Part shown: positions 8,861-14,224 of the stretch, piece by piece
Numbering within the stretch: the first letter of the stretch is position 1
Layout: each line of letters opens with the position of its first letter
Source of the DNA: an uncultured Treponema sp.
Lineage (GTDB): Bacteria; Spirochaetota; Spirochaetia; Treponematales; Treponemataceae
DNA: 64,000 bases
Direction: 5' to 3'
Assembly: GCA_946615905.1 (NCBI GenBank)
Contig: CAMOIE010000014.1
Coordinates: forward strand, 1 to 64,000
Notes under the pieces: model-generated
Seen by the model: only the letters and a program-made list of their open reading frames with translations
What the model was told of the DNA's origin: nothing
Database searches by the model: none
Translations under genes and position numbers: made by a program

Positions 8861-10443
8861 CAAGATTTCAAAACCTCCCGGACTTTTGAGACAAGCTCCT
8901 CCTGACTTGAAAAGTCATTCTCCGATTTTTCAGCGTTTTCGGCATTTTGCGGGCGGCTTACGACAATGACCGACATCGAGCATTTTTTGGCCGCCTCGAT
9001 TTTCTGGGCAAAACCTCCGGCTTCCCCACTTTCCTTTGTGACAAGGACTTTGGCTTTCGTCTGGCAAAAAAGGGCTTCGTTCATCGATGTAGAAAAAGGC
9101 CCCTGCATAGCGATGATTCTGTTCATCGGGATTGAGGCTGACAGGCATTTTTGAATCGACTCGACTGACGGCAGCACGCGGAAAAATACCCTCTCACGCC
9201 AATTTTCTATGCACGTAAATGGGGCAAGCTCCCGGCTCCCGGTCGAGACAAAAATCACGGTGTCCGGCGGAAAACTCGCGCACAATTCTGCGGCGGCGGC
9301 AACAGAGGGAACAAAAGTGATTCCGTCTGCCGCTCTTGTGGATTGGAAGCTTTCAGACTCCGGGCGGGAAAATCTAAAATAAGGGATTTTAGTCTTCTTG
9401 CAGGCGGCAAGCGCATTTTTGGACACTTCCTCAGCGTACGGGTGGGTCGCGTCAACAACCGCATCGTATCTAGGGAATACTTCTTCCATTTTGGACTGAT
9501 TCATCCGCCCGGTCAAAATCTTGCAATTTTTCTCAAAATCAAAGGAGTCCTCGCGCAAATCGTCCAAGCCCGCCTGTGTGGCAAGAGAAATCGTGACTTC
9601 AAAAGAAGAGTCAAAGAGAGAGCGGGCGATAGACTTTCCCTCGCTCGTTCCGGCCAAAAGGATAATTTTTTTTATTTTACGCTGCATATAGCCGCGCGGA
9701 GTCAGCAAAAAGTCCCGTTGATTTTCACCGCTTCCAAGAGTGATTTTTTTAGTCGCGGAAGAGCCGACAAAGACAGTCGTCAGCATGTCGAGATTTTTTC
9801 CACCCAAATTCTTGAGCATGCAAAAGTCCTTCTCCTCCCCTTCCCGGCCAATATTTTTAGTCCATGCGCAGGCTGTCTCCGGTGACTTTCCACCGTCAAT
9901 AAGAATCTGGCAGGCCTTTTTTAATGCATCGGGACGGGCGTGACTCATCGGATTGTAAATCGCAATCGGAAAGTCTGCGGACGCTGCGGCTTTGAGGCGG
10001 GATTCAATTTTGGAGGTCGGAGTCAGATAGTCTGAAAGCGAAATCACCGCAAAGTCGTTTGAGAGCACGGAGCCTAAAAGGGCGGAGCCTGAAAGGGCGG
10101 CCGTCACACCTGGAATAATTTTTACTTTTACTTCTGGAAAGTCGGCGGCCATCTCAAGGGCAAGGGAGGCCATTCCATAGAGGCCGGAGTCCCCGGAAGA
10201 GACGAGGGCGATTTTTTCCCCGGCAGAAGCCGCCTCCAGCGCAGAGCGGACGCGTTTTTCTTCCGCCATCATGCCGGTCTGAATGTATTTCTTTGCAAAA
10301 TAAGGCTTTAAAAGCTCCACATAAGTTGAATAGCCTGCAATCACTGATACGCCATCGAGGATTTTTTTTGCCTCGATGGTCATTCCGTCAATTTTTCCGG
10401 GGCCGATTCCGACTACGTATAAGATTTTTTCAGATTCACTCAT
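8860..10443 (-). CDS. cbiHJ: CobJ/CbiH C17-methyltransferase fused to CobK/CbiJ precorrin-6A reductase
   Basis: Residues about 1-250 are a tetrapyrrole methylase (ILYVVGIGPGKIDGMT, ALVSSGDSGLYGMA, IYNPMSHARPD) that methylates C17 and contracts the ring. After a short MQRKIKK linker, residues about 275-520 match precorrin-6A reductase (IILLAGTSEGKSIARSL, DAVVDATHPYAEEVSKNA, VFVSTGSRELAPF). The frame extends upstream to 10533, but ATG at 10443 starts the domain exactly and overlaps the preceding stop (ATGA, 10440-10443). Both steps lie in the same corrin pathway, so a fusion makes biochemical sense. Genes for cobI, cbiC and cbiD are not in this window. Confidence 0.9.
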   Translation of the reverse strand: MSESEKILYVVGIGPGKIDGMTIEAKKILDGVSVIAGYSTYVELLKPYFAKKYIQTGMMAEEKRVRSALEAASAGEKIALVSSGDSGLYGMASLALEMAADFPEVKVKIIPGVTAALSGSALLGSVLSNDFAVISLSDYLTPTSKIESRLKAAASADFPIAIYNPMSHARPDALKKACQILIDGGKSPETACAWTKNIGREGEEKDFCMLKNLGGKNLDMLTTVFVGSSATKKITLGSGENQRDFLLTPRGYMQRKIKKIILLAGTSEGKSIARSLFDSSFEVTISLATQAGLDDLREDSFDFEKNCKILTGRMNQSKMEEVFPRYDAVVDATHPYAEEVSKNALAACKKTKIPYFRFSRPESESFQSTRAADGITFVPSVAAAAELCASFPPDTVIFVSTGSRELAPFTCIENWRERVFFRVLPSVESIQKCLSASIPMNRIIAMQGPFSTSMNEALFCQTKAKVLVTKESGEAGGFAQKIEAAKKCSMSVIVVSRPQNAENAEKSENDFSSQEELVSKVREVLKS

Positions 10444-12275
10444 AATTTTACCGCCAAGGCAAAAGTCATTCCGTCCGCAGCTGTCTTTTTGACCAAAAGT
10501 TTTCCGCCAAGAGCAAGGGCAGAGCGCTCGCAAACGTTGTCCGTTCCAGTAACGCCTTTTACAAAGTCGGACTTGGAAAAGTCACCTGCGACCGCATTAA
10601 GTTCTTCGGCTGTAAAGAAATGAGTCCTCACTTTGAAATTCTTGGCCAGGTCCAAAATCGCATTTTCGCCCTTCTTCAAGTCAATCGAAGAAATAGAACA
10701 GACGGCTTCCTCAAAAAATCCGCCTGAGTCAAGCTGACTTTTTACAAAATTTTCCATTTTTTTTGAATCGCTCCCCTTTTTGCAGCCAAGCCCCAGATTC
10801 AGGCAGGGGGGAATTAAAAAAAGCCTTTCCCGCCCGCCAAGATTCTCGCACTTTTCAAAATCCGATTTTCTAAAGGAGACGACAAAATCAGCATTTTCAA
10901 TCGAGCCGGTCATTTTAACAGGAGCTAAAGACTCTTTTAGACGCTCACAAATTCTTTGCGAGATTTCTTCCGGGGCAAAACAAGAGATTTTTTCATTTTG
11001 CAGGACTCTGGAAGAAATATTTTTCACCGCAGCGATATTCTTGATTTTAAATCCATTTTGAGCCGCCCATGAGTCGACCGCCCATTTTCCGCAGGAATCA
11101 GTCGCCGTCGTGATGACAGCCTCCGCCCCGATTTTCCGCGCGATTATATTTGCCGCAAAGTTCGCCCCGCCTAGGTGCCCGCCAATAATCGGGACTGCAA
11201 AACGCAGCTTTCCGTCAAAGGCGACTACCGCAGGATCAGAATCTTTACCGACTAAAAATCCGGCTGACGCGCGCACTGCAATCGCCGCCGCCCCGACTGA
11301 CAAAATCAAGGTCTTTTGCCCGGCATGTGAAGAGTCAAAAAGGCGGCCGAAAATTTCTTCCGCCCTCTCGTGATTAATCCCAAAGCATTTGCATAATTCC
11401 AAGTCCGCCCCGCAAAGAGCGAGTTCTTTTACAAGAGCAAAAAGCCTTTCCGCTGCCGCCATCTCCGACTCCGAATAGCAGATTACAGCGATTTTCTGAA
11501 AGTCCAGATTTTGGGTGCCAGAAGCCTTTCGATATTCAGTCGTAAAATCCTTGTCGTAAAGGCAGCTTTTATTGTAGTCCGCTCCCAAAAAATCCCCGAC
11601 AAGGACGAGGGCTGTTTTCCTAATCCCGGCCTCCCGGACTTTTTGGGCAATGTCGGCCAAAGTTCCCCGGACGATTTTCTGATTCCTCCACGAGGCCTTG
11701 TAGACCACGGCGACAGGACTTTCTTTTGTGTAGCGGGAACCCGGCCCGGTCAGCTTTTCTGCGAGGGAGTCAATCATTCCGGTGGAAAGAAAAAGGACCA
11801 GAGACGAGCCGATTTTAGAAAGATTTTCGATTCTCTCGTTTTCAGGCACAGGAGTCCGTCCCTCCATGCGGGAAATTATCAGAGTCTGGCTGATTTCAGG
11901 CACGGTGTATTCCGCATTCAAGGCAGCTGCCGCCGCCAAAAATGCGGAGACTCCCGGCACTACTGAATATTCAAGGCCTATTTTTTTAAGCTCCTCGATT
12001 TGCTCACGGATTGAACCGTAAATTGACGGGTCTCCGGTGTGGAGGCGGACGGCGACTTTTCCGTCTTTTTCTGCGGAGGCGAGGGCTTGGGTCGTCTCTT
12101 CCAAAGTCATTTTTGAGGAGTCAAGAATCTCGCAGCCGGACTTGCAGTATTCCAAAAGCTCGGGGTTCACAAGGCTTCCAGCCCAGACGAGCAAATCGGC
12201 CTTTTGCAAGAGTCTCATTCCGCGCACAGTGATTAAGTCAGCGGCACCGCTTCCCGCACCCACAAAATAAATCAT
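10440..12275 (-). CDS. cbiFG: CbiF precorrin-4 C11-methyltransferase fused to CbiG cobalt-precorrin-5A hydrolase
   Basis: Residues 1 to about 250 form a CbiF/CobM methylase (MIYFVGAGSGAADLITVRG, RLHTGDPSIYGSIREQ, LVLFLSTGMI). Residues about 260-610 are CbiG-like (AVICYSESEM, VPIIGGHLGGANFAANIIA, VITTATDSCGKWAVD). CbiG opens the lactone ring in the anaerobic (cobalt-early) pathway, so this operon points to anaerobic B12 synthesis. The frame runs on to GTG 12341, but ATG 12275 matches the family start and lies 6 nt after a TATAAT. There is no Shine-Dalgarno at that ATG; an AAGGAG about 50 nt upstream would serve an in-frame TTG extension. The first 55 nt are part of a 76-bp repeat duplicated beyond the toxin-antitoxin pair. 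Confidence 0.9.
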   Translation of the reverse strand: MIYFVGAGSGAADLITVRGMRLLQKADLLVWAGSLVNPELLEYCKSGCEILDSSKMTLEETTQALASAEKDGKVAVRLHTGDPSIYGSIREQIEELKKIGLEYSVVPGVSAFLAAAAALNAEYTVPEISQTLIISRMEGRTPVPENERIENLSKIGSSLVLFLSTGMIDSLAEKLTGPGSRYTKESPVAVVYKASWRNQKIVRGTLADIAQKVREAGIRKTALVLVGDFLGADYNKSCLYDKDFTTEYRKASGTQNLDFQKIAVICYSESEMAAAERLFALVKELALCGADLELCKCFGINHERAEEIFGRLFDSSHAGQKTLILSVGAAAIAVRASAGFLVGKDSDPAVVAFDGKLRFAVPIIGGHLGGANFAANIIARKIGAEAVITTATDSCGKWAVDSWAAQNGFKIKNIAAVKNISSRVLQNEKISCFAPEEISQRICERLKESLAPVKMTGSIENADFVVSFRKSDFEKCENLGGRERLFLIPPCLNLGLGCKKGSDSKKMENFVKSQLDSGGFFEEAVCSISSIDLKKGENAILDLAKNFKVRTHFFTAEELNAVAGDFSKSDFVKGVTGTDNVCERSALALGGKLLVKKTAADGMTFALAVKL

Positions 12276-12296
12276 GCGGGGATTATAACACAGATT
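12221..12296. repeat. 76-bp direct repeat, copy 1 (promoter and first 18 codons of cbiFG)
   Basis: This segment is identical over 76 bp to 13028-13103 (constant offset 807). It holds cbiFG codons 1-18 and 21 bp upstream, including TATAAT. Identity ends at 12296 (C versus T next). The two copies frame the HigBA-like toxin-antitoxin pair. Confidence 0.97.
12282..12290 (-). promoter_or_regulatory. Extended -10 element of the cobalamin operon
   Basis: Read on the minus strand, TGT-TATAAT ends 6 nt before the cbiFG ATG. A TGn extension substitutes for a poor -35 in known sigma-70 promoters. Transcription starting about 7 nt downstream would begin at or next to the A of ATG, so the mRNA is probably leaderless. 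No B12 riboswitch fits in the space. Confidence 0.55.
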
Positions 12297-12361
12297 CCTG
12301 CCAACCGCCAATTCGAGTTTTTCTCCTTGTTTTTTGTTCACAAATATGCTAACTTTTAAAT

Positions 12362-12718
12362 ATGAAGTATCGGGAAGTCAAATTTTACAAGACTGCGGAA
12401 GGGAAAAAGCCTGTGAAAGAATTTCTCGATTCACTCGACGGCAAGGTCGCGCAGAAAATCGTCTGGACTTTGAAGCTTGTGGAGGAGCTTGAAAGAATTC
12501 CCACGACCTACCTGAAAAACATCACGGGAACTGAATTTTATGAAGTCCGTGTGATTTTCAGCGGCAACATCTACAGGATTCTTGGATTTTTCCACGCGGG
12601 GAATTTTCTTATGCTGACGAACGGATTTCAGAAAAAGACGCAAAAAACGCCGAAGAATGAAATCGACATCTGCAAAGAGCGAATGAAGGATTTTTACGAC
12701 CGAGGAGGCGAATTATGA
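12362..12718 (+). CDS. higB: HigB/RelE-like toxin (phage Gp49-like family)
   Basis: A 118-residue basic protein with the family layout: N-terminal REVKFYKTAEGKKPVKEFLD, central ITGTEFYEVRVIFSGNIYRI, and the C-terminal signature MLTNGFQKKTQKTP. These features mark the Gp49-like HigB group, ribosome-dependent mRNA interferases of the RelE fold. The downstream antitoxin gene overlaps it by 4 bp (ATGA, 12715-12718); toxin-first order is the HigBA norm. The pair points away from the adjoining cobalamin operon and lies inside a 76-bp direct duplication. Activity is inferred from family. Confidence 0.85.
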   Translation: MKYREVKFYKTAEGKKPVKEFLDSLDGKVAQKIVWTLKLVEELERIPTTYLKNITGTEFYEVRVIFSGNIYRILGFFHAGNFLMLTNGFQKKTQKTPKNEIDICKERMKDFYDRGGEL

Positions 12719-12990
12719 GCGATTTGGACGAATACATTGACGAAAGGAAAAAGAGAGACCCGGACTTTGCCGAGGGATTTGATTCAGGCTACGAGGATTT
12801 CAAAATCGGTCATCTAATCAAGGAAATGCGCCTTGAAAACAAGATGACGCAGGAAGAGCTTGCCGCAAGGCTGAACACCAAAAAGAGCGTGATTTCCCGC
12901 CTGGAAAACCACTCAAACGACGTGCGGCTTTCAACATTGCAGAAAGTCGCGGGAGTTTTTGGAAAACGCGTTTCGCTGGCGATAAATTAG
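12715..12990 (+). CDS. higA: HigA-like XRE-family antitoxin
   Basis: A 91-residue protein with an N-terminal acidic arm (MSDLDEYIDERKKRDPDF) and a helix-turn-helix of the XRE/Cro type at about residues 33-85 (LIKEMRLENKMTQEELAARL, KSVISRLENHSND, LSTLQKVAGVFG). It presumably neutralises the overlapping HigB-like toxin and represses their shared promoter. Its translation is probably coupled through the ATGA junction. The gene ends 37 bp before the second copy of the 76-bp repeat. Confidence 0.87.
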   Translation: MSDLDEYIDERKKRDPDFAEGFDSGYEDFKIGHLIKEMRLENKMTQEELAARLNTKKSVISRLENHSNDVRLSTLQKVAGVFGKRVSLAIN

Positions 12991-13027
12991 CTTCTATTAT
13001 TTTTTTCACTCCGAATACAAGATTCAG

Positions 13028-13103
13028 CGCGCACAGTGATTAAGTCAGCGGCACCGCTTCCCGCACCCACAAAATAAATCATGCGGGGATTATAACACAG
13101 ATT
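13028..13103. repeat. 76-bp direct repeat, copy 2 (orphan cbiFG 5' end)
   Basis: A perfect copy of 12221-12296. On the minus strand it contains the TATAAT, ATG (13082) and first 18 codons of cbiFG, then runs into unrelated sequence, so no functional gene remains. It may still work as a promoter firing toward the antisense of higA. Confidence 0.95.
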
Positions 13104-13149: not shown

Positions 13150-13265
13150 CAAGGCAAAAACGACCTCCCGTTCCGGTGCCCCCATCGGGAAAAGGCTTCA
13201 CTTCGCTACGCTCGTTGCAGAATTTTTCCCGCCGGTCCCCCCACCACTCCGGTCGGTTTTTGAAT
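13150..13265. repeat. G+C-rich dispersed intergenic repeat
   Basis: Between the orphan repeat and metF lies a G+C-rich stretch with short inverted motifs (ccggtgccccc, gctacgctcgttgc, ccgccggtcccccc) resembling the other intergenic G+C-rich segments of this window. The rest of the 13104-13321 gap is A/T-rich and shows no gene. Confidence 0.5.
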
Positions 13266-13321
13266 TTTTGCCATTTTATAAAAAAGTTACTCAATCATTT
13301 TTTATAAAAAAAGGAGAGGAC

Positions 13322-14224
13322 ATGCAGACATCTTCAATCGCAGAAAAGTTAAAGTCAAAAAAGGTCACGGTTTCGTTTGAGATTTTTCCGCCAAAAAAGC
13401 AGGCGGGCTTTGAGTCTGTCAGGCAAACGGCCCTTGACCTGGCCTCCCTCAACCCGGACTTTATCTCAATCACCTACGGGGCTGGAGGAACAACCCAGTC
13501 CAACACTGCCGAACTCGCTTCCCTCATCGAAAAAAACGGAGTCTCTGCCCTCGCCCACCTCACCTGCGTCCGCCTCACAAAGAAAAAACTTGAGGAAAAC
13601 ATCGCCGCATTCAAGTCACAGGGAATCAAAAATATCCTTGCCCTCCGTGGTGACATGCCCAGAGACATAAATGAAGGCGAAGACGTTTTTCCGTCAGGAT
13701 TCAGCCATGCGTCAAACCTCATCACGCTTTTAAAAAAGGAAGGCTTTTGCGTTGGAGGAGCCTGCTACCCGGAAGGACACCCGGAATCCGCCAACCGCGA
13801 CGAGGACATCGACAAGCTCAAGGAAAAAGTCGAGGCAGGAGCTGATTTTTTGACGACCCAGATGTTCTTTGACAACGACATGCTCTATTCATTTTTGTAC
13901 AGAATGCAGTCAGCAGGAATCCACGTGCCGGTCCTGGCTGGAATCATGCCAATCACAAACTCAAGTCAGGTCTCCAAAATGGTCGATTTGTCCAACGCCT
14001 ATATTCCCCGCCGACTCCTGTCAATCTGCGACAAATTCCGCTCATCCCCGGACGCTATGCGCCAAGCCGGAATCGCCTACGCAACCGAGCAAATCATAGA
14101 CCTAATCTCAAACGGCGTGCGAGGAATCCACATCTACACGATGAACAAGCCGGAAATCGCCCGCGCAATCATGAGGAACATAGACTCAATCATAGCGGCG
14201 ACGAACGGTCAGATTGGGGCCTGA
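13322..14224 (+). CDS. metF: 5,10-methylenetetrahydrofolate reductase
   Basis: A 300-residue TIM-barrel flavoprotein with MetF signatures: VSFEIFPPKK (Glu20 corresponds to the catalytic Glu), SITYGAGG, LALRGDMP, GGACYPEGHPES, TTQMFFDND, GIMPI. It reduces methylene-THF to 5-methyl-THF, the methyl donor used by the MetH enzyme encoded 160 bp downstream. An upstream start at 13268 is possible, but ATG 13322 has an AAGGAGAGG ribosome site and the expected N-terminus. No SAM or B12 riboswitch was seen in its leader. Confidence 0.96.
   Translation: MQTSSIAEKLKSKKVTVSFEIFPPKKQAGFESVRQTALDLASLNPDFISITYGAGGTTQSNTAELASLIEKNGVSALAHLTCVRLTKKKLEENIAAFKSQGIKNILALRGDMPRDINEGEDVFPSGFSHASNLITLLKKEGFCVGGACYPEGHPESANRDEDIDKLKEKVEAGADFLTTQMFFDNDMLYSFLYRMQSAGIHVPVLAGIMPITNSSQVSKMVDLSNAYIPRRLLSICDKFRSSPDAMRQAGIAYATEQIIDLISNGVRGIHIYTMNKPEIARAIMRNIDSIIAATNGQIGA

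Follow-up and report, generated by a model that had tools for sequence, protein, structure and literature searches.

A HigBA-type toxin–antitoxin (TA) pair lies between two identical 76-bp copies of the head of cbiFG, and repeat-framed toxin-type loci are found again at other places of the same genome. The explanation that we favor, with a probability of about 0.6, is that the pair was inserted as a bare unit where cbiFG begins and that the process duplicated 76 bp of its target, much as in the insertion with long target duplication (ILTD) described for restriction-modification genes. The pair's DNA would have entered a break at the cbiFG promoter that was either widely staggered or copied, which would leave 76 bp of the site on either side of it, and the pair would need no recombinase of its own. 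It follows from the structure that one recombination across the repeats would remove the pair cleanly; such a loss may occur later, and the addiction activity of the pair would select against it. If this explanation is true, the mechanism proposed for restriction-modification genes would extend to TA pairs. It has long been asked how solitary chromosomal TA pairs reach their positions when no mobile element is in sight. A repeat signature that identifies recent insertions offers testable events, and a single genome here has two cases with perfect repeats, of 76 and 87 bp.

The duplicated head of cbiFG and its insert

The window, which is the whole 64-kb stretch of DNA that was analyzed, contains the 76-bp pair as its sole direct repeat of at least 40 bp (Table 1). 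The two copies agree at every position and both stop abruptly. There is no third copy anywhere else in the genome, and the first 22 bases of the repeat, with up to 3 mismatches tolerated, gave 2 matches against 0.00 expected. Each copy includes a TATAAT −10 box, the ATG and 18 opening codons of cbiFG. Copy 1 is part of cbiFG, the native gene, which is intact and is read from the minus strand with its ATG at 12275. Copy 2, which abuts the insert, is an orphan duplicate of that gene's head. Because one copy belongs to an intact gene and the other is an orphan, and because other toxin-type loci, unrelated in kind and in site, have the same architecture, the duplication is best read as the mark of the insertion, a possibility that the earlier note had raised and that our analysis supports. 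Its description of the locus, a 76-bp identity around a 731-bp spacer with HigB-like and HigA-like genes, proved correct in every figure.

Table 1. Features of the cbiFG locus and repeat-framed loci elsewhere in the genome. C numbers are contigs of the genome under study (G000); the cbiFG locus is on C14. Coordinates without a prefix are those of the window.
Feature	Location	Strand	Remarks
cbiFG fusion (CbiF precorrin-4 C11-methyltransferase + CbiG)	10440..12275	-	Pfam TP_methylase, CbiG_C, CbiG_N; NCBIfam cobM_cbiF above cut-off
Direct repeat copy 1	12221..12296	-	cbiFG -10 box, start codon, first 18 codons; 100% identical to copy 2
Best promoter-like site upstream of cbiFG	12282..12311	-	TTGGCG-18-TATAAT; consensus match only
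Insert, 731 bp	12297..13027		TA pair and its own promoter region, nothing else
Probable antitoxin operator	12335..12353	+	TGTTCACAAATATGCTAAC, decayed form of palindrome TGTTAGCATATATGCTAACA; comparison with 17 related pairs
HigB-like toxin, Gp49/DUF891 family, 118 aa	12362..12718	+	PF05973, E 2.1e-19
HigA-like HTH antitoxin, 91 aa	12715..12990	+	PF01381 HTH_3, E 5.9e-13
31-codon orphan ORF	12987..13082	-	Runs from copy 2 into insert, antisense to antitoxin stop
Direct repeat copy 2	13028..13103	-	Orphan head of cbiFG
metF (methylenetetrahydrofolate reductase), right-hand neighbor	13322..14224	+	PF02219 E 1.3e-82; NCBIfam fadh2 above cut-off
DUF4160-type pair	C17, L216 1366-1452 and 2040-2126		87 bp, 100%; insert 587 bp, AT-rich (38% GC)
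VapBC pair	G000:C3 near 41982, L303 1086-2100		201 bp, 93%; insert 616 bp
Second Gp49 pair + DUF2442/DUF4160 pair	C19		Framed by terminator/gene-end copies
DUF3990 gene	C27		44 bp, 91%
AAA_14/DUF4143 gene at 3' end of nth	G000:C1:192722-194458, L174 12722-14458		140 bp, 86%
AAA_14/DUF4143 gene	C29		Repeat-framed
AbiEii + DUF6577	C11		Palindromic repeat; weaker case
Fic gene	C20		36 bp, short palindromic repeats; weak case

Beyond the two genes of the pair, the insert has neither ORFs of known families nor a recombinase gene or transposase ORF. An inverted-repeat pair is absent from its ends, which do not occur elsewhere in the genome, and downstream of the pair the window has no attC-like site. 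The 31-codon orphan ORF is probably without meaning.

The pair resembles type II TA systems of the HigBA/Gp49-HTH kind in its Gp49-family toxin and HTH_3 antitoxin, in the toxin-first order of the genes and in their 4-bp overlap; its function is predicted from the sequence. The toxin scores 69.8 bits against a curated cut-off of 23.9 (Pfam Gp49), and its best solved relative is HigB 6af3 (E 7e-7). A promoter palindrome is likewise present, but in a decayed form: the related pairs have in common a TTGACA and the palindrome across the −10 region, and the degenerate element in the promoter of our pair is the probable antitoxin operator. The GC3 of the pair is 0.56–0.59, against 0.55 ± 0.07 in the host. 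Since this composition is host-like while the GC content of related pairs is 31–39%, the pair appears to be long resident in the lineage. It looks as if the pair is old and the 76-bp duplication fresh, a point against the insertion reading insofar as the pair does not fit as a newcomer from a distant donor. A phage or plasmid origin was rejected, as toxins in plasmids, phages and IMG/VR are only 32–48% identical.

The pair and cbiFG are divergently oriented. The best promoter-like site of cbiFG (10/12 consensus matches, with a TG preceding the −10 box) combines a −10 box that lies in the native repeat with a −35 box (12311-12306) that lies in the insert, and a side effect of the insertion may be that cbiFG reads from a hybrid promoter made of its own −10 and the insert's −35. 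The −10 box of copy 2 has no matching −35 box. No riboswitch was found for cbiFG, the Rfam matches in the window consisting of one tRNA only. Between copy 2 and metF there is a GC-rich intergenic repeat (window 13156-13268), of which partial copies are present on C1 and C31 (88–89%).

Repeat-framed genes in the genome and the genus

The direct-repeat scan (at least 35 bp, at least 80% identity, 250–6000 bp apart) covered ~1.2 of the 2.96 Mb of the genome and gave 24 repeat pairs, several of which frame toxin-type or related genes. The search for other cassettes with flanking duplications, as proposed in the earlier note, was successful on C17, C3, C19, C27 and C1, and the repeats that frame the VapBC, DUF4160-type, C19, DUF3990 and DUF4143 loci measure 44–201 bp. 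On C3 a methyltransferase-like gene supplies the repeat, which is made of its 3' end and the promoter after it; a second TA-like pair stands directly behind the framed VapBC. The nth-end copies on C1 hardly differ within their first ~95 bp and diverge beyond. To our knowledge, the DUF4143 ATPases are not established as TA genes. DUF4160/DUF2442 was reported as the TA pair dhiTA (PMC8198452). Some of the framed inserts, those on C2, are not toxin-type (WYL regulator/DJ-1; TetR/aldo-keto reductases), which counts against the insertion reading for TA pairs. Two candidates were discarded: a 56-bp repeat on C22 is part of paralogous acetyltransferase ends, and the framing match at L207 is an artefact that arose because that locus is truncated. 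Other repeats of the genome are a CRISPR-like array, its repeat 36 bp long, in the vicinity of the framed Fic gene (C20, L142 8787-10406) and a perfect 8-bp tandem repeat, ATCTGCGA, in about 13 copies (G000:C4, L127 3986-4090).

In a test that started from the genes, we searched the whole genome for members of each family and then compared the flanks of every locus. Framed loci made up 2/2 of Gp49, 2/6 of DUF4160, 1/6 of DUF4143 (a seventh locus, at a contig end, is left out of this count), 0/4 of ParE and 1/4 of PIN/VapC. In this test a frame surrounds 6 of the 22 toxin-type loci, compared with 25 of 1500 random placements (1.7%; p=2.6e-6); several families were chosen for this count after a framed member had been seen. 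Among the loci not seen beforehand the figure is 2/17 (p=0.035), with those on C17 and C3 as the new cases. The presence of the same signature around unrelated TA pairs suggests that the pairs move as bare units.

Frames were also found in other species of the genus. At a score of at least 30 they surround 8 of 60 DUF4160 and Gp49 loci, compared with 0 of 48 housekeeping loci (p=0.007). When attC, HsdS, Rhs and tandem-pair cases are removed, 3/60 remain at this score (p=0.17), which counts against the insertion reading, and 6/60 at a score of at least 22 (p=0.026). The clearest case (G175, L231) is a DUF2442/DUF4160 pair which, together with a VapBC pair, stands alone between repeats of 120 bp; a phosphate-acetyltransferase-like gene lies upstream. 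Another DUF4160-family locus (L244, G085:C6 near 44274) has 85-bp repeats of 97.6% identity and adjoins a CbiL-like cobalamin gene, either by coincidence or through a site preference. The control repeats of G148 were rejected as insertion frames, being mostly paralogs, attC-like or DGR-like repeats; on its contig C1, repeats of ~90–110 bp occur at gene 3' ends beside a reverse-transcriptase-like ORF (L200 9727-15473, G148:C1:289727-295473) and together with it are probably a diversity-generating retroelement. A wider proposal, which we offer tentatively and regard as possible rather than probable, is that TA pairs of several unrelated families are mobile units in the genus, which insert without a recombinase and leave duplications of ~40–200 bp; the repeats would later permit a clean excision, penalized by the toxicity of the pairs themselves. 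If so, ILTD would be a general route for addiction modules and not peculiar to restriction-modification genes.

Relatives of the pair and of the locus

We inspected 17 related pairs (about 60–74% aa) from other genomes of the genus. Their flanks contain no neighbor-gene duplication (0/17, these being the closest relatives), which counts against the insertion reading at cbiFG. An attC-like site follows 8 of the 17, which indicates that the family of the pair travels elsewhere as an integron cassette; higBA integron cassettes were reported from oral samples (PMC4909258). Compared with these Treponema cassettes (intI, attC), the pair at cbiFG has no attC-like site, and cassette insertion makes no 76-bp duplication; an integron origin at this site was rejected on the lack of attC. 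A remnant of an integron integrase is found at G000:C2:81986-82324 (model residues 202–314), and a second one lies in G004:C15, close to a related pair. An integron was probably present in the lineage at one time.

The neighboring genes have no close counterpart in the genus, where metF reaches at best 73% nt and cbiFG 56–68% aa, at other places in the genomes. Neither the gene order of this locus nor an empty-site allele is present in the compared relatives (genus genomes; a contig scan matched distant genera only), and this too counts against the insertion reading.

Known systems and rival explanations

ILTD was described for restriction-modification genes of Helicobacter pylori (Nobusato 2000; Furuta 2010; reviewed in PMC3874152), the duplications being about 100 bp long (PMC3874152; PMC3031569; PMC1643837). 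The likeness lies in a bare gene unit that has no recombinase, in long direct repeats of local sequence with variable length, and in a cargo of the addiction type. Such local direct repeats abut the insert here, and the signature recurs at unrelated sites. The differences are that the cargo consists of TA pairs instead of restriction-modification genes and that the host belongs to another phylum. ILTD is proposed here from the architecture of the repeats and its recurrence. We found no description of this signature for TA pairs in the literature that we searched, which mostly did not include subscription papers. Transposons, too, come to be flanked by direct repeats of target sequence; 76 bp is far above their usual length, and the transposase and terminal inverted repeats of such elements are missing here.

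One possible option is that the repeats are portable homology arms and not a fresh target duplication. A conspecific circle or fragment carrying the pair beside a cbiFG head would then have integrated by one crossover within the 76 bp, as in the Campbell model. The host-like composition of the pair fits such a transfer within the species, and the two nth-end copies on C1 resemble two alleles, a divergence that hints at homologous import there. Yet a prior event would be needed to join the pair with a cbiFG head, 76 bp is little homology for RecA to recombine efficiently, and the copies on C14 and C17 are 100% identical with no mosaic, and we regard this route as unlikely. An old tandem duplication of the 76 bp together with the pair, followed by loss of the second pair, would yield the identical final structure with no insertion. 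It would require two precise events and an ancestral pair beside cbiFG, which is seen in no relative, and it leaves the recurrence around unrelated pairs unexplained; we consider it very improbable.

A product of the assembly or of a strain mixture, in which an empty site was joined with an extrachromosomal circle (76 bp plus the pair) or the alleles of two strains were joined, is improbable as well. The assembly is a draft of 47 contigs and, at k=55, an exact repeat of 76 bp makes a loop beyond resolution by the graph alone. However, the junction at 13027/13028 would have k-mer support, and other frames in the genome have diverged copies (86–93%), which assembly does not create. Many contig ends share 52–55 bp, which points to an assembler overlap, with a final k of 55 and not 76, and therefore an overlap artefact was dismissed as unlikely.

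The insertion of a bare pair with duplication of its target also has to be weighed against the idea, put forward in the earlier note, that the pair is an addiction-type guard of the B12 operon and that the orphan copy acts as a decoy promoter. The pair does adjoin cbiFG, and the G085 locus lies next to another cobalamin-type gene. We find this idea hardly credible. The decoy finds no support in the promoter itself, as the −10 box retained by copy 2 has no −35 to go with it and it is copy 1 that gains one from the insert. As for the guard, the pair is transcribed away from the operon, and a precise excision would take the pair and leave the operon intact. The remaining framed pairs stand at non-B12 genes (nrdG-like, DNA-methyltransferase-like, nth and SGNH-hydrolase-like), and since these target sites are unrelated to B12, they leave the guard unsupported.
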